Source of the DNA: Lineus longissimus
Taxonomy: Eukaryota; Nemertea; Pilidiophora; Heteronemertea; Lineidae
Reading direction: 5' to 3'
Assembly (NCBI RefSeq): GCF_910592395.1
Contig: NC_088309.1
Span: 13,582,599-13,646,598, forward strand
Length of the DNA: 64,000 bases
Of this stretch, positions 604 through 43,076 are shown one piece after another. The stretch's first letter is position 1. Every line of letters begins with the position of its first letter. Made by a program: the position numbers and the translations under genes. The notes under the pieces are model-generated. The model saw only the letters and a list, made by a program, of their open reading frames with translations. It did not search any database and was not told the DNA's origin.

Positions 604-1357
604 CTAGAAGAATGGTGACGTCTGTTGGGCAATGCGAAACTGCTGACCGTCAAATGGCAAATTGTAATCCCGAATGACCTTACGCTTGATGACTTTTAGC
701 ACTTTGTTCAGTTCAGCTTGATTAGGTATGTGGCTTGCAGTCATGTGATCAATCTGTGGTACTAATGGCTCAGGTGTTAGCAAAAATTCTGGTGGACACT
801 GTTTGATGTGTTCTTCCTGAACTTGATCATTCTTGTTTATCACTCTGTCAACCAATCTTGGCTCTGGTACTGTAATATCAGCTGGCTGGGCCTGTTGTTG
901 GACGGCTGGTGGTGGCATCCTTAGTCTCGGGGTCCTGGCAGGACTGGCTTGGCGTCTAGGTGGCCTGGGTGCAGGAACAGGTCTTGGTTGAGGGACGGGC
1001 CTGGGAGGCGGTGGCACAGTATTATCGATCCTTTGTTGTTGGACTTGGGGTGGCCTTACAGCTGGACGTCCGTCTTTGAACAATGGTGCAATGGGTAATG
1101 CATTTTGTCGCGCAAATGACCTGGTTACGGGTCTTGTAGGAGCACTTACAGTAGGATAGGCACAATCTAGGCAACCAAAATGACAACTGTCTGAACTACA
1201 GAATTCAAGATGCTGAGACCTGGGTACATGCCATTCTTGGGCTGGGAATGCAATGGGCATGATGCGATCAAATTGATCATCATCATCCAGTGGTGCTCTT
1301 GACAAGAAATCACTGACAACTAGATCTGTGCCTTTTTTATAGGCCAACTCAAATGAA
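604..1357 (-). pseudogene. Gypsy pol: end of RNase H plus long proline-rich linker to integrase
   Basis: The reading frame starts with the end of RNase H (KKGTDLVVSDFLSRAP, the usual motif after the last RNase H helix). It then runs about 180 residues before the integrase. The linker is rich in Pro, Arg and Gln (VPPPPRPVPQPRPVPAP region, roughly residues 105-150) and contains a Cys/His cluster (CSSDSCHFGCLDC) near residue 50. Such a long proline-rich spacer is unusual, although some Gypsy clades do carry a linker here. The frame closes with a stop at 604-606 and then continues into integrase. The 609-bp insertion at 1361 cuts the RNase H just upstream. Confidence 0.8.
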
Positions 1358-1360
1358 TAA

Positions 1361-1969
1361 CTAGAATTGTCAGTTGAGTCTTTGCAGACTCTGGAGTCTC
1401 CGCCTCATAAGCACACAGCCATGCATGTTTACAAAAACAAAACAAAAACATCGCACTTTCACTTCAGCGAAGCGATGGTTTATTTGCGAAATACGACTGA
1501 TCAAGGCAACATAAAGTGTCCAGAAGGGAAGAACACATTCTTGAAACTCAGCTGCTTTAATTCACTGCCGTTTTTTCATATTTCATAGCCCATAAACTCC
1601 AAATATTAGGTTTTATAGAAAAATGCTTCGATGGTGTAGACTAGTCCCTGGTCTTTATCCGTTACGTTCCTCCATATGTGCAGCCAATATGTAATACACA
1701 TAACGCGGGGCACCAGTCATCGTGCCGGTATGGCGAGGTTTATTGGTTAAAGATTTACATGTATTGCGCTATGCATGCCCATAGCACTTTCCCGGCTGTT
1801 ACCCAGATTGACTTCTTAGTTCATGGACACCCTCGTTTTATCGATGTTTTGCAATGCATTGCCATGTTCATGTACATATGAAGCTTTCACCTGGGGACGA
1901 GAGTTTGCTGGAATAATTTCTCGAGGAGAATAATACCCTAATACAAAAGTCTCAGCCGATGGCGGAGAC
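1361..1969. mobile_element. 609-bp non-autonomous element inserted in Gypsy RNase H, with TAA duplication
   Basis: The segment separates the two halves of RNase H. It is flanked by TAA at 1358-1360 and 1970-1972, consistent with a 3-bp target duplication (or TA with shifted ends). A second copy lies in the opposite orientation at 59314-59936. An inverted pair AGTCTCCGCC / GGCGGAGACT lies at 1394-1403 and 1961-1970, so the inner ends are partly symmetrical. The short open frames inside are shared by both copies but resemble no protein I know; I read it as non-coding. The superfamily is not clear. Confidence 0.82.
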
Positions 1970-2337
1970 TAATGAGACAATCTCTCAAGAAGCTTTTGTA
2001 AGCGTAGTGTGCATGGCTCACTCTTACTCTTCACGATTTGAACGAGACTACTGTGATCAACATATGCTAAGAAGGAATGTGACTGCAAAAGATAACGAAA
2101 AGCTGTAACATTGATGTACAGTCCAAATAACTCAAGTTCACTGACTGAATATGCTGCTGCAGCTGGAGGAAGACGCTTTGAATAGTAAGCAATGATACGT
2201 TCTTTGCCTTGAACCCTTTGTGCCAAATATGAGCCTGTGGCTATACGCGATGTGTCTGAATACAGAACAAACTGACCTTCCGGTGCTGGGGCACACAGAG
2301 GCTTCTTCGTGCTCAGCTTGCCAGCTGAAAGTGGCAT
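1970..2337 (-). pseudogene. Gypsy RNase H, first part
   Basis: This is the 5' part of the RNase H domain, which removes the RNA strand during reverse transcription. The catalytic Asp is in LYSDTSRIATGSYLAQ. It is followed by the RIIAYYSKRL strand and the SVSELELFGL helix that carries the catalytic Glu. Relative to the RT frame there is a one-base shift near 2300, so RT and RNase H are no longer fused in this copy. The domain ends abruptly at LERLSH, where the 609-bp element has inserted; its last residues resume at 1357. Confidence 0.87.
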
Positions 2338-3961
2338 TGCGTTTGGTTAACTCATGAAGGGGTTTAACCAATTCTTGGAGGCGTGGCAAATAGAGACTGA
2401 GAAATCCAACAGCTCCAATAAACCATTTGACCTGTTTTGGGGTCCGAGGCTGTGGCATGTTACGAATTGCTGAACATTTATCGTTCATAGCCTGCACCTG
2501 AACTACGCCTTCAGCATTGATGCTGATTATGTGGCCAAGAAATGTGACTCGTTGTCGAAACAGTTTACACTTTTGTGTAGACAATTTGAGTCCATGCTTT
2601 TTCAATGCCAAGAGTATGCTTTCTAAATGCCTTGCATGCTCTGCATTACTTTCACTGAACACCAAGAAATCATCATGAATGGGAATGACAAATGTGTCCG
2701 AATCAGGAATCTCAGCAAGGATTGAGTTGCATTTTTCAGCAAAGATACCACTTGATACAGTGAGACCCATTGGTAATCTACGATACATGTAATTGGGAGA
2801 GCCAGGATAAGGAAAAATGCCAGTGTAAGATTGAGATTTTTCCGAGAGGGGCAGACTGTGAAAAGCACTTTTGAGATCAATCACTGATAATACTTTACAG
2901 TTTGAACGCCCTAAACGAGCTAGAACACTTTGTAGGCTGACAAAATTTTGATTGACAGTTCTACAACGACTATTCAAATACCTGAAATCGCTGACTATCC
3001 CCTTGTCAGTTGTACCCTTTTTGCCAATCAGCATGACCGGGCTGCTGTAGGCAGAACAGCCTTTCTTCAAGATATCAAGATTTACCAGCTTATTGAACTC
3101 TTTGTCAATTTGCTTGCGATTTTCCTCTGGGATAGGATATGGGCGGACGAAAAATGGACTGTCATCCTTCAATTGGATGTCCACTTCAAAATTGGGGCAC
3201 GTGCCAATTTCCCCGTAGAGGCTGAATGCCTCTTTGTTCCGTAGAAGTAGCTCATACAAGTGCTGCTTCTCATCCGCACTAAGAGTGCTACCTTGCAGCG
3301 AGATTTGCTGCTCAATTATATCCTGGGGTGACAACTTGGAGATAGGATCATCGATATCCAGGTGAGGGTACCTGAGCAGATTTTTATAATGAAGGTCAGA
3401 TACGCACTGTTCACGTGTGACCCTATTATTCAAGGAGCCACTAGGGACTAAGTGGGTAGCATGAATATGATCTGACAAATCAGTGAACGCAACAGGACGA
3501 TTATCACTGAAAGTGACATTTTTCTTTGAATTGTTCGTAACCCGGAGAATGGCTGCACTTTTCCTGAGCTTTACCAACATGTATGATGGACAATATTTAC
3601 TGAATTGCTCAGTAGGCTGCAGCAAAACCTCAGTATGCTTGAGCAACTTAGGAACTTTGCCTTTGACTACAATACTCCTAGTCTGACCTGGTCTCAAAGT
3701 CACTATCTGTACAGGGGTGAACTGGATACGCCTGGGTCTGACAGTTAAGGTACTGGTTGAAAAGTCAAGTGTACTATTCAATTCCGACAGGGTCCGAGCA
3801 CCCAAAAGCAAATCTGGTCCGGTAAGGTTGTCTGCAACAACAGCATGAATGCGGAGCTTATGACCTTGGATAAGAAGCTCAGTATTTATAGCCTTTGTGG
3901 CATGCAAGAATTCACCGTTTCCTATGCGAAAATGTATTGGATCAATGTCCATCTTGGGCAA
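2300..3961 (-). pseudogene. Gypsy protease end and reverse transcriptase
   Basis: A long open frame of about 550 residues before the frameshift. Residues 1-60 hold the second half of the aspartic protease (LTGPDLLLGARTL, the flap/ILG-like region). The RT follows from about residue 240: fingers (SDFRYLNSRCRTVNQNF), catalytic Asp in VIDLKSAFHSLPLS, the RRLPMGLTVSSGIF primer-grip region, and the active-site box as IPIHDDFLVFS. The first position of the usual YxDD box is Ile here. The thumb follows (LKLSTQKCKLFRQRVTFLGHIIS) with connection sequence after it. RT is the best-preserved part of the element. The frame is lost near 2300 at the junction with RNase H. Confidence 0.92.
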
Positions 3962-4158
3962 TTTTGAAAGATAAGGAGACTTGTTGACAGATTAACCAGA
4001 AACTAAAGTGCGTGTTGCACCTGAGTCAACAACAATTACTAATCCCTGCTTATCTGGGAGGTAGCCTTTTACATAATTTTGTGTAGCGAGTTTTAGATCA
4101 ATTGGCTCTGGGCCCAAGTATTCAGATTCATGGGATGAAGAATGTACAGGATTATTAT
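3962..4158 (-). pseudogene. Gypsy aspartic protease, catalytic half
   Basis: The frame contains VVDSGATRTLVSG, the retropepsin catalytic motif (D-S/T-G-A). It is followed immediately by a TAA stop (about 3993), after which the same frame continues into the pol frame. The stop is therefore most simply a decay mutation, not a designed end. Upstream residues (NNNPVHSSSHESEYLGPEP) are the gag-protease spacer and are cut by the piggyBac-type insertion at 4159. Confidence 0.85.
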
Positions 4159-4876
4159 TTAACCCTTTCGCTGCGGATGTACGCATTTTTGCGACCAAAA
4201 AAAATTTCCGATCTGTGCGGATGTACGCAGAACTGCGACTTGGGAGAGACCTGAATCAGACGATGTTTTCAATAGCAAATTAGTACAGTAACTTGTCGCT
4301 AGGTGTCCAGCCATGTTGTTTACCGCTAGAACTTCCGATTTCTTGGTGAAAACTTCGGTGTTTTTATTCAAAGTTTAGGCGATATTTTGAGTCCAAAGTT
4401 TTGTAAACAAATTTAAATGCCTCAGTCACGTGTTCGACGAACTGCAGAATTAATAATTGATGAAATAGTGAATTCGAGGCGTTAGAAGACGAGTCTGATT
4501 AGTGATTATGATTCTGAACATAATGCCGATGTACACAGCGTGCATGGGGATGGAAAGTGTGCATGATTCAGGGTCCGAGGGGGATGATAGTGATAGCCTG
4601 GGTCAAGATGAAAAATGGTGTTTTTCTCCTCGTTGATTATTACTAATTAGCGTTATTTAGTTAATTAACATAATTTCAGGTGATTGACAAATGCATAATT
4701 TGAAAGTCAATGCTGTCCCCAACAACCTTTTCCAATAGTCCAAAGCTCTATCTCTTCTCCTTCAGGCTGTATATTGGCCTCAAAGTTACCTATGTTAAAA
4801 TTGGCTTTTACAGTATTTTGGGGGCAGCAAGGAATCAATATTGAAATAATTTTGAGCGGCGCAGCGAAAGGGTTAA
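4159..4876 (+). mobile_element. piggyBac-family deletion derivative, TTAA-flanked, 718 bp
   Basis: The ends are TTAACCCTTTCGCTGCG at 4159 and its reverse complement at 4860-4876, a 17-bp perfect inverted repeat that includes the TTAA. TTAA target duplication with a CCC(T) terminal sequence is the hallmark of piggyBac elements. On the plus strand around 4450-4620 there is a broken acidic Ser/Asp/Glu-rich frame (DYDSEHNADVHS, then GSEGDDSDSLGQD). It resembles the acidic N-terminus of piggyBac transposases, with stops. No catalytic core is present. It lies in the gag-protease region of the Gypsy element and is therefore younger than it. Confidence 0.88.
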
Positions 4877-5104
4877 AACATTATTACAACTAGGGGGCGA
4901 CACAATATGGCCTGTTGACCGTCCCCTATCTAAAAATGTGGCTGATAACTAGTATAGTTGGTCGTCTGTTGTTGTCCTTGATTGTTGTTAGCAGAAGGGT
5001 CCCAGTAGTTTTGCTGTTGATATGGCTGCTGCTCAGACGGGCTATATGTAGGCTGGTGCTGATAATTGTAGCGTGGTGGACGTGGTCGTTGAAACCTGGT
5101 ATTT
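4877..5104 (-). pseudogene. Gypsy gag C-terminal Gln/Pro-rich tail
   Basis: The minus frame runs TRFQRPRPPRYN and then a Q-, Y- and N-rich tract (YSPSEQQPYQQQNYW) to a stop near 4926. It lies between the 4.6-kb insertion and the piggyBac insertion. If the 4.6-kb unit and one copy of the flanking ATTT are removed, this frame is in phase with the gag frame that ends at 9716. It is therefore the continuation of the nucleocapsid region. Confidence 0.78.
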
Positions 5105-5548
5105 GGGACAACACCGGTGATTATTTGCAATGCATTTTCTATTAAACTTAACAATCTGCCAAAAATAGGAAACCGTATTTTTTTACAAACCGCCACAAGG
5201 GGTTAATATCCAAGGTCTGGGACATCCCTCACTGCAATGGCGTATAAGGTTCACCACGAAAATCTAGAGAAAATCCTATTTTTGTAAAACAGTTCTCAGA
5301 TTCTCACTTTCCAAGCTGCTTGTCTCCAGAAATGAAGCCCTTACTGGTGCTGCCCTCCTGAAAATACCCGGGGGACCATAGAACTGAAATCAATATTTTA
5401 TGAAAGATTGAATACTACTCTATAATTCAAATCAATATTTATCTTGATTACCTTGGTATTAACCCACGCCATCCCAGGGTCAACTTTTTGTTTTTATTCT
5501 TCAATAATTTGACGCCCATACCGATGTAGGTGTCACTGGTGTTGTGCC
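5105..5548 (+). repeat. 444-bp terminal repeat, left copy
   Basis: It starts GGGACAACACCGGTGA and ends TCACTGGTGTTGTGCC. These are imperfect inverted repeats of about 16 bp, so the repeat on its own looks like a small TIR element. It differs from the right copy at only three positions (near 5152, 5177 and 5247). The left flank is Gypsy gag (ATTT). The right flank is TAATAGG. Confidence 0.9.
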
Positions 5549-6263
5549 TAATAGGAAGGGGTTAATAGCGGATGGGTTAAAAGTGGGCATATTCTGAAAG
5601 GGTTAGACCTCCCATCCAACAGGCATAGGGAAGAAATTTGATCAAGGCCCTGCATGGCCTATGAGATCAAATTGTCTATTGTACTTACCATTGCAACTTC
5701 AAACGGAGTTCACAGGGCGGTCCCTTATATTCAACAGGTGCTGTCTTCAACAAACACAGGGTTAAAGCAATCAATCACTATCAGTCAATGACTCTGAGAG
5801 GCCCTCTTCTGAAATACAAGAATGAAATCATTACACATGCAGTTTGTCACATTAATTCATTGCATAACATGGCCACACCCATATATGGGCGGTAACCGCC
5901 TAATATTACGTAATCGTACGCAATAGCCGGGGACCCTTTTTCTGCAAATTTTAGTATTTTTGATTTCAAGGATCCTACCCTTCAAGATGCATCAAAAAGT
6001 TTAGTAGGCCATCTCAAGATGCAAAACATATCAAGCGTCAAAGATGTTGTCACCCCACAAGGAGTTCATCCAGCAACAGGCAGAAGGTTAAGAGGACAAT
6101 AGAAATCATTGTTTATTGATGCTTCATGACAGTTTGATGACAGAGAAATGAATTAATTATGTTAGATATTAGTTACAAACAGGTGTCCAGGTGTCAAGAT
6201 TAAATTTTTTTTAAATCCCCCATCTTTCTCACAGGTTATTGGCCGAAGTTAAGAAGAATCAGT
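5549..6263 (+). other. 5' region of the transposase gene inside the 4.6-kb unit
   Basis: No clear open frame. A polypyrimidine tract and CAG at about 6220-6234 look like a 3' splice site directly upstream of the transposase frame. An upstream exon or leader is therefore likely in 5900-6100, but I could not define one. GGGGTTAA and GGGTTA words at 5560-5610 resemble piggyBac-type ends but have no partner. Confidence 0.4.
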
Positions 6264-8597
6264 ATGTGTTGGGGCTACCAAGCCAGCAGGATGGTGCTCA
6301 CTAGGCGGCGTCGCTATGACTGTCAAAAACCAGGGATTACTAAACGAAGGGATACATTTTTCAAAAAGGGACACGTTCCGTACAAGTCCAAAGTGGATTT
6401 TCGAGCCTCGGACCCTGGGGAGTGGTTACGTCTTCCACTGGATCTTTACAATCAAGTGACTACAAAGGGACCGGGTGGTACAAGGATTGTTCCGGACATT
6501 CACAACAGGCCTTCAGGTAGGACCAGACTTTTGAGACCCATTAAGCCGCCATCAGATCAAGATGTACAAAATCATTTCGAACCCTCATCATATAACCCTT
6601 CATGTAGCATGACCGATGAGAACTATGTAATCTCTGTAGAAAAAATGATGGACTTAATGAACTCTGTAGCTGTGTCACACAATATGACAGGTTGTGTTCG
6701 TCCGGAGTTTCAATATGAAGATAAAGTAAAAAAGGGTCTTTGCGTGACCGTGAGGGTCAAATGCAAAAATTGCAAGTACATTTCTGACAAAAATAAGTTG
6801 TATTCAGAGTTGGCATCGGCTAAGGCAGGGGGTAAAAGTGCCATACCCAACATTTCCTTACAGTGCGCACTGTTGGATTCATCAATAGGAAACTTCAAGG
6901 GGAGCCAGATCCTGAACACAATAGGTTTGCCGACGCCCTGTCTGAGTAGCATGCAGGAACAAGCAAACCGGGTAGGGAAAAAGATTGTTGAACTCAATGT
7001 GGAAGACATGGCCAATATCAGAGGTTCCTTGAGAGAGGTTAATCGACTGAGGGGTCAGGAAGACGTGAATGCATTCACAGCTTCAATGGACGGTCGTTAC
7101 AACAGCCAACGAATCACCACAAGGGGCAAACTTGGCCAGGCTGCATCCCAGGTTGTAGAAATAGCCACAGAAAATTTAACCGATTCGAAGAAAGTTATTG
7201 ATGTTGCATTTTTCAATAAGCTATGCTGGAGGGGTGCATACTGCCGTGCACGTGGGTTACCTATTCATTGTGGGAGCGCTCCCTCAAAGTCAAATTCTAA
7301 GTCAAGTAAGGCGAGTAGGCCTACCACAAGGAGTTCTGCTAGGGAGTCAAATGAGGGAGCCGAACAGTTTCATAAGAATTGCACTGCAAATTTTCCAGAG
7401 GTACTCCCTTTTTCTGAATATGAGTTGGCCAGAACTATCACTGCAAACCTTGCCAAGGAGGGCATTCATCTTGAATATGTCTGCACAGATGGGGACAGTT
7501 CTGCTTATCGTGGTGTCAGGGATGCAACAGATATGATTTTTGGGACCCTGTTCAATGTAAAGCCTCAAACAGACTCTATTCATTTAGGCCAGGCAATGTT
7601 TCGTGCTGGTTTAAAGACTGATTTCAGTAAGAATTGTTTTCCTGGGAGAACAGCAGATGATCAAAAAACATTTCAAAAACTGTTTATGTTAGATGTAAAG
7701 TCACGCTCCAGCAGGGCATTGAAACTACTCAGGAATGATGTGGGTGGGGACGTGGTGAAAATGTCAAAGAAACTGGTACCCTTGGTGCAATGTTTGATCG
7801 ATTGCTACTCAGGTGATTGCTCCAAATGTAGAAATAACAAATACAACCTGTGCAGCGGTGGAATCACCAATTCTTGGAGGAAGAAATCAGAATACTTTAA
7901 GGCCTATGGTAAAAAGTCCCTTGACATTTCATTCAATGAAACTGACAGAAAGCTGCTCCAAATCCTGTTAGAAGTTCGCCTTGGGGAATCTGCATTGGAG
8001 TCTTTGAAAACAGGGGTTACAACTAACAAACCTGAAGCCACAAACCGTGGCATTTCAAGCAGCCTACCCAAGAATATTACTTTCTCCAGAAATGCATTGC
8101 CAAGGGTACACAGTGCAATCCATCGCGTGAACAATTCATTGGCAAAGAGTACAATGACCAAGCTTGATAAGGGTCTCAATGTACCGCTGAACCCCCAGTC
8201 TCATGCTATGAAGAACTTAGGACGGCTCCAGAATAGGAAGGCATACAATGTGGCTTACAAAGAGTCTCCGGAGTTCAAGAAGCAAAACAAACGGCAAAGA
8301 ATTAAACGCATGGGAGACTTCCTCACAGATAAAAGGGCCAGAAAGGAGGGGGACTACCAAAAGTTCAGCCAGCTACTGATTCCAATACCCGGAGTAGCAG
8401 CAGGGTCATCTAAATCACGGGGTCGCGGTATGCCTACACCAACCAACATCACCAAACCAAAAGGCAAGAAAGACAAAAAAATCCACAAGGAGCACCCATA
8501 CAGTCAGGCGCCATCTAACGAGTCACGGTCCATGTGCAGTCGGAGGGTATGTCGGAGGGGAGGACCGTCGCCGCAGGGACCACACATACTCCAGTGA
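6264..8597 (+). CDS. Mutator-like (PF20700-type) DDE transposase, intact 777-codon frame
   Basis: A long uninterrupted frame in a landscape of broken ones. The N-terminus is basic (start possibly at the second Met, MVLTRRRRYDC). A zinc-ribbon-like CKNC lies at about residues 168-171. Next is a segment (NISLQCALLDSSIGNFKGSQ then ILNTIGLP) matching the pattern I know from animal proteins annotated as Mutator-like transposase domain. ASMDGRYNSQ near 275 offers the first catalytic Asp and VCTDGDSSAYRG near 410 the second. A Cys cluster (CYSGDCSKCRNNKYNLC) lies near 515-532 and the C-terminus is Lys/Arg-rich. The family call is by remembered pattern, not a search. It sits inside the 4.6-kb unit and probably has an upstream intron. 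Confidence 0.75.
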   Translation: MCWGYQASRMVLTRRRRYDCQKPGITKRRDTFFKKGHVPYKSKVDFRASDPGEWLRLPLDLYNQVTTKGPGGTRIVPDIHNRPSGRTRLLRPIKPPSDQDVQNHFEPSSYNPSCSMTDENYVISVEKMMDLMNSVAVSHNMTGCVRPEFQYEDKVKKGLCVTVRVKCKNCKYISDKNKLYSELASAKAGGKSAIPNISLQCALLDSSIGNFKGSQILNTIGLPTPCLSSMQEQANRVGKKIVELNVEDMANIRGSLREVNRLRGQEDVNAFTASMDGRYNSQRITTRGKLGQAASQVVEIATENLTDSKKVIDVAFFNKLCWRGAYCRARGLPIHCGSAPSKSNSKSSKASRPTTRSSARESNEGAEQFHKNCTANFPEVLPFSEYELARTITANLAKEGIHLEYVCTDGDSSAYRGVRDATDMIFGTLFNVKPQTDSIHLGQAMFRAGLKTDFSKNCFPGRTADDQKTFQKLFMLDVKSRSSRALKLLRNDVGGDVVKMSKKLVPLVQCLIDCYSGDCSKCRNNKYNLCSGGITNSWRKKSEYFKAYGKKSLDISFNETDRKLLQILLEVRLGESALESLKTGVTTNKPEATNRGISSSLPKNITFSRNALPRVHSAIHRVNNSLAKSTMTKLDKGLNVPLNPQSHAMKNLGRLQNRKAYNVAYKESPEFKKQNKRQRIKRMGDFLTDKRARKEGDYQKFSQLLIPIPGVAAGSSKSRGRGMPTPTNITKPKGKKDKKIHKEHPYSQAPSNESRSMCSRRVCRRGGPSPQGPHILQ

Positions 8598-8716
8598 TCC
8601 AGTCCAATCAACGTCGTCACAGGGACCAACTGTCAGGAAAAAGGGACCAAAGAAATATCAAACAAAAAAGTAAGTTGGTTTAAAATGTATGCATCAGCCA
8701 GGAAGGGGTTAATTCG

Positions 8717-9236
8717 TTAAAAATTAGCATGGGGTGGGATTAGCTTAATAAGCCTGGGTCTTTTGAACATTTTGTAACACAACAGTAGCATGTGCCTACC
8801 TTGACTAGCCCCCATATGCAAATTAAGTATACATGCAGGGTATGATGTGTGCCCAATACACAGTCCTCTGGCCAGGCAACGCTGCCGACTCTTGTTTATG
8901 GCACTGGGCTCCAGGGTCAAATGTTCCAAATTCACACACAGCGAATTGTGACAAAGATGTGAGACATCACCCTGGGGGTCAGTGACCCCAGTATTCAAAA
9001 TGTACATCAACCTGTGTACACGAAACTTATTAGACTTCTTTGCATTTGGCAGTTTGGCACTCATTTCTCCATATATCATACACCCCAGCTTCCGTTTGGC
9101 CCCCCCAAGTCCATATCCGGCATTCACGATTCTTACCAACCTGGCTACGGGCCTTTATTCTTTCCTTGTACGTGTGTTTCCAAGCTTCATCGGCCATTTT
9201 AGCTACTGTTGTGTCACTGTGGGAGACAAAATTCAT
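8717..9236 (-). pseudogene. His-Me finger (HNH, I-PpoI-like) zinc-binding endonuclease, one frameshift
   Basis: Residues 61-88 of the 140-aa frame read HLCHNSLCVN...H...N...RQRC. This is the zinc-binding His-Me finger seen in I-PpoI-type homing endonucleases: His61 as likely general base, Asn82 as likely metal ligand, and C63/C68/H73 plus C88/C94/H97 as zinc ligands. The N-terminal part (KARSQVGKNRECRIWTW) is in another frame upstream. The two meet at a run of seven C (plus strand, about 9100-9106), so a single-base slip there accounts for the break. The likely start is Met at 9236 or 9197. It is convergent with the transposase and lies in the same unit. Confidence 0.72.
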
Positions 9237-9267
9237 GGGTGTACGGTCCAACTGAATGTACCTAATA

Positions 9268-9711
9268 GGGACAACACCGGTGATTATTTGCAATGCATTT
9301 TCTATTAAACTTAAAAATCTGCCAAAAATAGGAAACCGTGTTTTTTTACAAACCGCCACAAGGGGTTAATATCCAAGGTCTGGGACATCCCTCACTGCAA
9401 TGGCGTATAGGGTTCACCACGAAAATCTAGAGAAAATCCTATTTTTGTAAAACAGTTCTCAGATTCTCACTTTCCAAGCTGCTTGTCTCCAGAAATGAAG
9501 CCCTTACTGGTGCTGCCCTCCTGAAAATACCCGGGGGACCATAGAACTGAAATCAATATTTTATGAAAGATTGAATACTACTCTATAATTCAAATCAATA
9601 TTTATCTTGATTACCTTGGTATTAACCCACGCCATCCCAGGGTCAACTTTTTGTTTTTATTCTTCAATAATTTGACGCCCATACCGATGTAGGTGTCACT
9701 GGTGTTGTGCC
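9268..9711 (+). repeat. 444-bp terminal repeat, right copy
   Basis: Same sequence and orientation as 5105-5548. The left flank is ACCTAATA. The right flank is ATTT followed by Gypsy gag. The antisense frame of the endonuclease region runs open into it, probably by chance. Confidence 0.9.
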
Positions 9712-10632
9712 ATTTGCTGCTCGGGCTGCTGGTGGGACGAAGTCAGAGGGGAGCTCTCCTCGGGCGACTTGAGCCTGGAAGCGGTGGCAATAACGCCAGA
9801 AATGACCAGTGCGGCCGCAAAAATGGCAGGGGTGGCTTTCACGGGTTCGTGGACGGCTTGGGGATTGCGACCGTTTCCGCTGCTTGTGGGCGTAGTCGTC
9901 GCTTCGAGACGGGCGGCTGGATCGTGGGTATGGCGATGTGGGTCTTGGACTGCGTGGTGCGTCTATGTCCTGGCTTTGGAAAGCTGCATGGGCCTGCGGT
10001 GGCGAAGCTTTGTCCATCTTCAGGTCGTCCAACTTGGCTAGGATGGCATGGAGGACGTGGTCTGTGGCATTGGTGGCGTGAACTTGGTCCGCTGCTGTTG
10101 AGAAATGTACGCGCTGTGGCGTGATATCAAGGAACCGCTGTGCACATTCGGCGATGGCGTTTGAATCGTCGTCTGCATCCATTGCCATGATAACGGCTTT
10201 CTGACAATCAGGAGGCAAGGTTTGTAGCAGTTTGTTTTTGATCTGGTTATCATCATACCCAATGCGGAGTGCAGCCAGCCTAATTTTACTTAGGTGCTGT
10301 TGTGCAGTCTGGTTTGCGGTGTAAGTAATCGACTCAAACTGCTGTACATTGGCAAAGTGAGAGTGGGTCGGGGAAAACCTACTCAGAAAGAAATTGTGCC
10401 TTGAGGTCATGCAAGTCCTCAAATTCTTGGTCCTCGGCCCAAAGGCGAGCATGTTTAGACAGGCGACACTTGAGAAGGCGCACAACATTGTTCATAGCAT
10501 CGTCATCACCTGGTTCATGCAGGTTATGTGCCTGAAGATAGTCATGGAATGACAGCCACCAAGATGTGGAGAGTTCATGAATACTTCACCATCAAAGTAT
10601 GGAGGCAATAAATCAGTGGGGCGCAACGCCAT
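9712..10632 (-). pseudogene. Gypsy gag, capsid region and CCHC zinc knuckle
   Basis: On the minus strand a start codon at 10632 (MALRPTDLLPP) is followed within about 45 codons by a frameshift. The longest surviving frame gives a capsid-like helical region (RFSPTHSHFANVQQFESITY, then AQQHLSKIRLAALRIGYDD). A Ser/Arg/Pro-rich basic stretch follows, then a perfect knuckle CHFCGRTGHFWRYC (C-x2-C-x4-H-x4-C) near its C-terminus. The frame is cut by the 4.6-kb insertion at 9711 and resumes at 5104. At least one frameshift in the N-terminus marks it as non-functional. Confidence 0.85.
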
Positions 10633-12025: not shown

Positions 12026-12309
12026 CATCTTTGTAATGTGACATGCGTTGTGATCACTATATAAATGGCCATTGTGACCAAGCTGTTGACCCTGTTGCAG
12101 ATTTCACATAAACAGTTTTTGGCATGACCAGAAAACGTAACCGACATGAATAGGTATGGTTAATTTCACTAGCCAAAGATGTGACGTCATAATTCCCTGC
12201 GACAATTCGGCTGTCCCGATCCCGTCTGCCGGTCCACATCATTGATATTCACCTGCTGTGAACCAACGTTATAGTTTTCTTTCTTGTTGATTGAAGTCCC
12301 GCGAGAGGG

Positions 12310-12452
12310 GGTGTCTATAAAACCAAGACCCAAGACCCAAGACCCAAGACCTACAAAACCAAGACCCCCATCTACAAAACCAAGACCTACAAAACCAAGA
12401 CCCCCATCTACAAAACCAAGACCTACAAAACCAAGACCCCATCTACATCTCT
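12310..12452 (+). repeat. Minisatellite of CCAAGACC / CTACAAAACC units
   Basis: Short units CAAGACC and CTACAAAACCAAGACC are repeated in varying order. The same words form the inverted array at 12766-12957. Confidence 0.9.
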
Positions 12453-12765
12453 CCTTTTTTCAGCAGGAAGTTGCAATTTATCAATAAAACAGAAGCTCCT
12501 ATATAAACAAGCTCTTTGATGCTTTGTACTCAGATTCTGTTCAGAACATTTAACACTGGTTAAGCTTTTCCAAGAAAATAAGGATCTCGGGGTAAGGATA
12601 TAATACAAAAGCTAAAATACCTTAAATAGTCCTCTCGAGGGTATTCGTGATAATACAGCCTAGCTTTCTAAAGGGTTAGGGTGAATGAAAAAAAAAAGAA
12701 CAATGTAATTACTTCTTGGGCAGGTACTATGGTACTAGGTACTAGTTTTTGGAGTAGGTTTGTTG

Positions 12766-12957
12766 ATGGATCTTGGTTTTGTAGATCTTGGTTTTGTAGG
12801 TTGGGGGTCTTGGTTTTGTAGGTCTTGGTTTTGTAGACACCCGTGTGGGTGTCTACAAAACCAAGACCCAAGACCCAAGACCTACAAAACCAAGACCCCC
12901 ACCTACAAAACCAAGACCCATCAACATCTTGGGTCTTGGGTCTTGGTTTTGTAGACA
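12766..12957. repeat. Inverted minisatellite, predicted long hairpin
   Basis: The left arm consists of GGTCTTGGTTTTGTAG units. The right arm holds their reverse complements, with a centre of symmetry at about 12832-12852 (GACACCCGTGTGGGTGTC). A further direct-sense block follows at 12930-12957. Either strand could fold into a stem of roughly 70 bp. Confidence 0.88.
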
Positions 12958-12964
12958 CCCACAC

Positions 12965-19006: not shown

Positions 19007-19667
19007 TTAACAATTTCACTGCCTGTAGCTTCTAATTTTTAGCTACCTCACCTGCCGGTAGGTTTCTTTGTTTTAACATGATTTTGAGTATGGATATTTC
19101 TCCACCCTGTAGAAAGAAAGCCTCTGGAGATAGAGCAAAACAATGTATATAAAAGTTGTTCAGTGTTGCCTACTCTTCAAAATGGGACCATAATTTGCCC
19201 TAATTTGCATACCGCCATCTTGAATTTATAATGAGGACGAAAATTTTTTGGAAAAAACTATGTAATTGGCAAAACACAATATACACACTCTCATTATCGC
19301 TAATTTGTTCATCATTTACATCAAAGTCAGGATCTAAATCATCGTCATCGACGAACTCCTCACCAGAGTCCGAATCGTTCACTATATCCAGCTCATCAAG
19401 GACCTCAGACACAGTCAGTTTCTTGGTCATTTTGGCTTCAAATTACTCGACAAACTTCCAAACATCGAAATATAAAACCATCCGCCATGTTTTGCTGAAC
19501 CATCTATACTACCGCGCCATCTATCAAACTTTACGCTAACCACGCTCAATAACGAAATTTCAATGGTTTTATAGTGTATGGATAATTGTCGCAGAAGTGC
19601 GCCTCCGGCAGTATAGGGAATAATATTGATTGTCGCAGAAGTGCTCCTCCGGCAGTGAAAGGGTTAA
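19007..19667 (-). mobile_element. piggyBac-family deletion derivative, 661 bp
   Basis: TTAA lies at 19007-19010 and 19664-19667. The ends TTAACAATTTCACTGCC and (reverse complement of the right end) TTAACCCTTTCACTGCC match at 15 of 17 bases. On the minus strand from 19430 an acidic N-terminus is preserved (MTKKLTVSEVLDELD, then DSDSGEEFVDDDDLD), typical of piggyBac transposases. The rest of the gene is missing. It lies in the first intron of the 4E-T gene. Confidence 0.83.
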
Positions 19668-19681
19668 TAAAGTGTCATCTG

Positions 19682-19783
19682 TTACAAAATTGCAGCCAGC
19701 CTATGCTAGGCTTACAAGACACGCTCTGTTATTTACAAAATTGCAGCCAGCCTATGCTAGGCTTACAAGACACGCTCTGTTAT
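19682..19783 (+). repeat. 51-bp tandem duplication
   Basis: Two copies in tandem of a 51-bp unit containing GCCAGCCTATGCTAGGCTTA, identical by eye. Confidence 0.95.
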
Positions 19784-40747: not shown

Positions 40748-43076
40748 ATGGCGGACACATGCGAATTTGACAGCGATTCATCGTAAAATATCTCAGATTT
40801 TTCTTGGGATAGCAACTCAGGATCAGTCATTATCAAAGAAGAAGATTTCGGTGAAGATGAGGAAGGGATTGTTCCTGGGTTCGAAGGGATTGAGCCGTAT
40901 CGGTTCGAGCCAGAGGCCCCTGAAGATGAGGCGCAAGATCGGGCCGGCGATATCGACAACATGGCCATGGAGTCGGACGATGATGAAGAGATCGACATTG
41001 TCGACTGCAGCATTGTTGAAAATTGGTAAGTTATCTCACAGCAGGCATGGACGATGTCCATGAAGGTTTCGAGCTAAATGGGGCTGATTAAAAACCTATC
41101 CAAATAATCCGTGCACATTTTCTAGCTGGTCTCGGTCGCCGTGGCGTAGATCAGCTGATCTGCCATTCTGATCAGCTGATCGATGTAAACAGAGAGATGA
41201 GCCTGAGGGATGGCGAACAAACTTTCAACATGAATTCAATCATAGAGATTTAACTGGGACCCCATACCACAGAAAACCAGAGTTTTCGGAACAAGCTGGG
41301 TTTGGTTATTTGAGCTTATTTAGTAAGGAGCAGTGAGTTTGGCCATATGGAGGGTGTTCTCGACTTGTAGGGTTGTATTTGTGGGTTTGGGGTGGCAATG
41401 GTGGATGGTTTTTTCTCCTGTGGTGATCATAGGGCTTTAATGATGTGGAAGCTCTCACACGATACTGCACATGTAAAGTGATTTAAGGTTATATGAGTTG
41501 ATTAGGAGCTGTTTATACTGACATTCAGTTTTGTTGTAGAGTTTGTAAAAAGGGAAAGTTTTATTTGGACAGTTTGAGGTTTGGAGGTGAGAGGTGAGAG
41601 GATGCATTGCTTATGAAGGCAATGCGTCCTCTCACATTGTGCTGCAGATGTTAAATGGATGAAGCGGATACAAGTTGATTGGTTCTGTTTGTACTCACAT
41701 TCAGATAGAAATGTCGTGGAATATCGGACAGTTGTGGTTGACGAGAAGAAGGATGCATTGATGTGATTTTGTCCCTGCTGCATTTGGGCACTGGAATGTG
41801 CTGTATGCACTGACTTCATAATTGCAAGAAGTTTGGTGCATGTCATGTTGTGGAACTTTCTGGCATGAAACATTGCACTTGTGAATGTTTTTGGGTATGA
41901 TACGGCTGCTTGAAATCGTTGACCAAATCATGAAATGAGCAGAGTGAATGCCGGTCGGGCCTAGGCCCACACTAGTACTACTTACTTGACTTCAAGCTCG
42001 GTGTCATTAATTACTTCAAGCCGCCCAAAGAATACACACGCATTCCTAATGGCTTATGTCACTTGAAACATGGCTCTTTCCACAAACTTACCAGTTACAA
42101 GGCGCAAACACCGAAAGTACCGGCCGCTGTGGCTGTCATATTTTACCGCACGATGACATGAGCATACACGTGCATACACGAGGTGTACAACGTCATAAAA
42201 TCGTGTGTAGTGCAACGTCACAAAATTGTGCAATGTCTGCCTCGTCATCGGATCTTGCTAAAAATTATCAGTTCACAATTTCGGACGCGTCATCAGTTTT
42301 GATATTCACAGATAAAATCCTTTTTTTCTTCTAAGTCAAATTTCGTCCGCGCTCCTTTTCACCGTAAACTACCTTGAAAATTATTTTGCTAACTATTCCA
42401 TGCGGTTAAACCGATTGGAGCGGGTTCTATCATAGATAACTGGAGGTCGAAATCCACAACCAGGAATATGACTTATGAAACCATTTGAAGCGGTCCGCAA
42501 AAGCCTTCGTCGTGAGGTGGTGCCGCCTGTCGGCGGTTCCGGGACCATTGCGTCAAGGCAACAATATTTTGTTCGTATTGAGCATCCATATGTATTTGTA
42601 GGTAACATAGGGGCCTACTGCATGTACAGTATGTATACCCTTACTCATGTAGGCCACGTCTTTGCAGGTGCACATGTAACCACTGCCAAGTGATGCCCAA
42701 GAGGGAAAAATGCGTTTGCTGTCAGACGAAGGACCAGTATCTGGCCAAGTGGGAGGGGGAGGTGGCTGAACCGCGGTGCATTACCAAACACGAGGGTTTT
42801 GACCCTGTATGCATAAACAAGTTCGTTTTGGAGACAGCTTGGTATCAATATCGCCAACAGTACGGGGGGAAGGCATTCGACGGGCCAGAACATAAGAAAA
42901 TGCGCCACATTGCCTACAGACAATTGGTACGATGGATTTATGGATTCATTGGGAAGGATATTCGTGTAGTAATCCCATCTTGTGCTGTGTCAAAAATTAG
43001 GGCCTTTTACCCACCACCTGAACTCGAGGATGATGCTGAATTCGTTGGATATATGGATGTCGAAGCGACGGAATAA
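40748..43076 (+). CDS. P2RX7_C-domain protein gene, two exons, one in-frame stop
   Basis: Exon 1 is 40748-41025 (donor GTAAGT) and exon 2 is 42668-43076 (acceptor TTTGCAG). The split Trp codon joins them in phase for 228 codons. Exon 1 is very acidic and holds IEPYRFEPEAP. Exon 2 gives CTCNHCQVMPKREKCVCC, then CITKHEGFDPVCINKF, AYRQLVRWIYGF and VVIPSCAVSKIRAFYPP. These are the Cys-rich zinc-binding features and closing PSC..IR..(F/Y)P of the P2X7 receptor C-terminal ballast domain. That domain is widespread as a stand-alone protein in invertebrates, with unknown role. No receptor or membrane segment is present. The TAA at 40784-40786 (codon 13) breaks the frame, so either this copy is dead or translation starts otherwise. 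Confidence 0.82.

Follow-up and report, generated by a model that had tools for sequence, protein, structure and literature searches.

A probable KolobokP transposon monomer with near-identical direct repeats inside a retroelement of Lineus longissimus

We found that a 4607-bp unit in the genome of the nemertean Lineus longissimus is very probably a monomer of the DNA transposon lineage KolobokP, built as LTDR-INT-LTDR, with two direct repeats (LTDRs) around an internal region (INT) that carries a transposase and a nuclease. The unit lies in a 64-kb stretch of DNA (the window), in which its anatomy, both protein families and its duplications can be seen directly. It is best read as a real, well-formed and cleanly bounded element that is ordinary for KolobokP, and not as a one-off composite. 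The filing was made by comparing this anatomy and these protein families with the published description (Kojima & Bao 2022, PMC9587614); the sequence relatives that we used were seven unnamed proteins. According to that paper, KolobokP comprises 228 families of LTDR-INT-LTDR structure in seven animal phyla, and its genes are a forward DDE transposase and a His-Me nuclease on the other strand.

Repeats, duplications and borders

The element is bounded by two 444-bp repeats in plus orientation, the left one at 5105-5548 and the right one at 9268-9711. They align without gaps and differ at 3 of 444 positions (repeat positions 48, 73 and 143; 99.3% identity), with the identity ending exactly at both repeat borders. 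Each LTDR has its own 16-bp imperfect TIRs, GGGACAACACCGGTGA and GGCACAACACCAGTGA, which agree at 14 of 16 positions with two mismatches (binomial probability of at least 14/16, 2.6e-7). When up to three mismatches were allowed, four TIR matches were observed in the 64-kb window compared with 0.31 expected, and none of 100 shuffles gave four or more. The LTDR termini are GG...CC. Comparison of the flanks revealed ATTT on both sides of the whole unit, at 5101-5104 and 9712-9715; this outer duplication can also be read as the 5-bp ATTTG if the G that opens the left repeat is given to the target. These features agree with KolobokP as described in PMC9587614, where the LTDRs, either about 450 or about 660 bp long, each have their own TIRs (11-18 bp, perfect or imperfect) and 5'-RR and YY-3' ends, and where target duplications are mainly 3-4 or 4-5 bp with no strong target preference. 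The window copy belongs with the ~450-bp LTDRs and, at 4 bp outside and 5 bp inside, with the published 4-5 bp class. In contrast, the target duplication of classic Kolobok is TTAA. Autonomous KolobokP families of oysters measure 4022-4748 bp (same source).

Between the LTDRs lies the 3719-bp INT (5549-9267, plus strand), with TAATA directly repeated at its left tip (5549-5553) and its right tip (9263-9267). The inner repeat can be read as TAATA, or as CCTAATAGG when the terminal CC and GG of the LTDRs are counted, and within the 64-kb window the longer form is confined to the two LTDR-INT joints, one occurrence at each, while its complement is absent. INT tips formed by the same short repeat are also found in one published family, KolobokP-1_MeMe, with TATA...TATA at the tips and a single TATA kept at INT-INT joints (PMC9587614, in the portion describing that family). 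No convincing TIR belonging to INT was detected when its two 400-bp ends were compared (best local match 9 bp). A 14-bp direct match inside INT, at 5553 and 8700, had an E of 0.14 within the inner segment and was judged to be chance.

The structure of the joints bears on two other histories. A tandem pair of 444-bp elements could have shared one ATTT duplication and later received an independent 3.7-kb transposon in its spacer, with TAATA as the duplication. The direct TAATA repeat at both tips of the inner segment speaks for this, but the segment lacks a TIR, and an insertion exactly between the repeats would be an accident that must have recurred in the published families, which makes such a history extremely improbable. 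It is also highly improbable that one small TIR element inserted twice around an unrelated gene pair and that the whole was later moved together. Each repeat is a complete TIR-bounded unit, which speaks for that history; however, independent insertions are expected to leave different inner duplications and both are TAATA, the transposase would be left without other visible ends, since there is no TIR between the INT ends, and the same arrangement is reported for 228 families in PMC9587614. Because repeat-genes-repeat is the typical monomer of a 228-family lineage, the repeats are best read as the transposase's own element ends.

Several statements of a first-pass annotation of this DNA hold: two 444-bp repeats with only three differences, TIRs in each repeat, ATTT outside on both sides (the 5-bp reading being possible too) and TAATA at both ends of the inner 3.7 kb. 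Its proposal that two small TIR elements mobilised the gene pair, and that a gene cargo was thereby given new ends, was not supported, for the reasons above. It had also set its readings against a conventional element whose inner segment always occurs with both repeats as fixed ends and a constant target duplication. Among the families of PMC9587614, monomers with constant ends and target duplications are common, but solo repeats and multimers occur too. No further copy of the element was found within the 64-kb window, and its borders therefore rest on the repeats and duplications of this single copy.

The interrupted retroelement

The insertion splits a minus-strand, gag-like frame of an LTR-retrotransposon-like element (4930-10488). 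When the element and one ATTT were removed, the frame ran without a stop across the joint. The neighbouring minus-strand ORF 2138-3961 matches reverse transcriptase (Pfam RVT_1, E 3.6e-22), and a match to retroelement RNase H lies at 1969-2337 on the same strand (E 1e-19). Neither the gag-like piece 9664-10488 nor the piece 604-1347 matched any Pfam family; the label gag-like rests on a zinc-knuckle-like stretch recognised by eye and on the adjoining reverse transcriptase piece. The first-pass annotation had described a gag frame in phase across the insert, of which the open frame at the joint was confirmed, while the name gag lacks Pfam support. The retroelement resembles the Gypsy type.

The retroelement as a whole covers 604-10488 on the minus strand, with reverse transcriptase and RNase H pieces in several frames, and hosts the KolobokP insertion. 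Beside the interrupted frame, the stretch 4650-4880 ends in AAAGGGTTAA and by eye resembles a small TTAA-type element. Elsewhere in the window, 12309-12964 holds closely packed copies of a TACAAAACCAAGACC-like motif, both direct and inverted, and a perfect inverted repeat of 38 bp, and 19585-19783 consists of two adjoining tandem pairs, one of 41-bp units that are 85% alike and one of 51-bp units that are fully identical. Searches gave no Rfam match at gathering scores and no tRNA.

Transposase and nuclease

The plus-strand ORF 6264-8597 encodes a Kolobok-type DDE transposase, 777 aa as read, that matches the Pfam Mutator-like transposase family PF20700 (E 6.8e-53). Its motifs include D276, D409/D411 and E591, and a DxxH at 437-440 (D437, H440). 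A CCHC zinc finger (C321/C336/H370/C373) follows the first D and a second zinc finger (C514/C519/C522/C530) precedes E, so that the set described for KolobokP transposases is present: DDE, C/DxxH and both fingers. A protein search with the transposase returned seven relatives at E <=0.001 among 6779 candidates, the best of which was 60% identical over 91% of the query. In an alignment with these seven relatives, D276, C321/C336/H370/C373, D409, D411 and D437/H440 were identical in all eight sequences. The residues C514/C519/C522/C530 and E591 were identical in the seven sequences that reach them, relative P0007 being left out of this count because it ends before C514. The window transposase differs from the seven relatives in its CCHC finger, which is 23 to 30 residues longer. 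Furthermore, its last ~35 residues diverge by eye from the tail of the best relative, which suggests a frame break there. The transposase had no match in plasmids or viral contigs, and in contigs of prokaryote genomes 195 stretches matched a pattern and none was confirmed. A DNA search of phages found no match, nor did a search of viral contigs with a 24-base TIR pattern.

According to PMC9587614, C/DxxH is also present in the DDE transposases of Kol0, KolobokD, KolobokE and KolobokH, nearly all of the other lineages have a zinc finger ahead of the last E, and the CCHC finger is common to KolobokE, KolobokD and Kolobok5 too; the CCHC finger alone thus does not single out KolobokP. Kol0, KolobokD, KolobokE and KolobokH differ from KolobokP in their accessory proteins, and the LTDRs of KolobokP are described there as unlike anything in other DNA transposons.

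At 42690-43076 on the plus strand we observed an ORF with a P2X7 intracellular (cytoplasmic ballast) domain (PF20478, E 2e-14). The fold of this domain is related to that of KolX, an accessory protein of the Kol0 lineage of Kolobok (PMC9587614). The ORF may be either a host gene or a Kolobok remnant; among the stop-to-stop ORFs of at least 90 aa at 40-46 kb, no transposase was recognised by eye.

The second protein of the unit is an I-PpoI-like His-Me nuclease (8717-9197, minus strand), convergent with the transposase and on the opposite strand to it, as in KolobokP. Two Pfam families are matched by its minus-strand ORF 8717-9139: zf-His_Me_endon (PF05551, E 8.7e-12) and, just under the curated cut-off, HNH_3 (E 1.9e-05). 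Compared with five I-PpoI sequences the nuclease gave a modest match (E 0.004 for the best, up to 0.25), and it has equivalents of I-PpoI S97, H98, C100, C105, H110, E114 and N119 at identical spacing. These seven motif residues are those of a His-Cys box homing endonuclease; unlike I-PpoI, which belongs to a group I intron, the window nuclease is carried by a transposon. A putative N-terminal part lies in another frame, in ORF 9030-9359, where one more Cys is encoded at 9122 and translation may start at 9197. This ORF alone matched no Pfam family and was assigned to the nuclease by eye. A plus-strand run of seven C (9100-9106) lies close to where the two frames join. The break, in which the window copy differs from KolobokP, is either a genuine mutation that disables the gene or a homopolymer error. 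When the larger nuclease piece served as query, one relative was found, 49% identical over 59%. The first-pass annotation was correct in naming a transposase and a homing-type endonuclease, as PF20700 and PF05551 indicate, though the nuclease is divided between two reading frames.

Proposed insertion and maintenance of the paired ends

The DDE transposase would recognise the outermost TIRs, at the left end of the left LTDR and the right end of the right LTDR, cut or copy the unit out, and insert it into the gag-like gene of the resident retroelement with a 4-bp ATTT duplication. We infer that the window copy was likely inserted as a whole in this way. Given that its TIRs are complete, each LTDR can probably also move alone. 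PMC9587614 reports solo LTDRs (common) and (LTDR-INT)n-LTDR multimers for the published KolobokP families, in which counts and footprints strongly suggest that LTDRs are excised.

The TAATA tips would descend from the target duplication that the LTDR itself had in an ancestral circle or tandem of LTDR-INT, and the His-Me nuclease probably cuts in or beside the LTDRs, causing a recombination that would restore and homogenise the paired ends. The published model for the nuclease is induced unequal crossover (PMC9587614). Because the LTDRs are 99.3% identical and cut-and-paste has no copying step, recombination between the repeats probably homogenised them at some time, and homogenised LTDRs are what both the unequal crossover model and a circle model would give. 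None of the three LTDR differences lies beyond position 143 of 444 (chance 0.033, assessed post hoc), a clustering that is too weak to place the homogenisation at this locus.

Alternatively, a solo LTDR may have inserted into the gag-like gene with ATTT, after which an LTDR-INT circle recombined into it; we regard this two-step history as possible but rather unlikely. It would account for the outer and the inner duplications each, for repeats that are nearly identical though cut-and-paste copies neither from the other, and for the clustering of the differences, and in the published families LTDRs often stand alone (PMC9587614). However, a monomer inserted directly would look no different, the homogenisation may date to the donor and not to this locus, and the clustering is a weak signal that was spotted in hindsight. 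The single copy in the window fits both direct transposition of the unit and capture of a circle by a solo LTDR, and the two cannot be told apart from it. A circle model had been put forward by the first-pass annotation; it is a possible route that had already been published, as one of several unproven ones (Fig. 5b1 of PMC9587614).

Bacterial composite transposons and the translocatable units of IS26 share with the window unit direct end repeats, every one of them complete and bounded by ends of its own, and the possible integration of a circle at a resident repeat (PMC9587614). Unlike in these bacterial systems, the transposase of the window unit sits in the internal region and not in the end repeats, and the host is eukaryotic.

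The TAATA tips could also be more than a relic and serve as a docking site that is actively preserved, with the window copy arising from a circle that entered a resident solo LTDR, a reading to which we give little credence. The nine bases of both LTDR-INT joints, CCTAATAGG, would also be present in a circle in which INT is joined to INT. If this reading were true, a lost LTDR could be regained there by ordinary transposition or by nuclease-induced repair, and the composite shape would be actively rebuilt. As a candidate nuclease target, the palindrome at the joint was rejected: palindromes as good or better occur elsewhere in the element, and it is no better than chance (for half-length 8, the best in the element reaches 7/8, and the mean maximum in 60 Markov-simulated sequences was 7.2).

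The window copy leaves the known picture of KolobokP unchanged. With its clear borders and an empty site that can be read, it enlarges a lineage in which the upkeep of paired ends is a standing question. Recurrent recombination between the repeats would fit both the co-occurrence of a 4-bp outer and a 5-bp inner duplication in one copy and the close identity of the LTDRs, in what is a DNA transposon.
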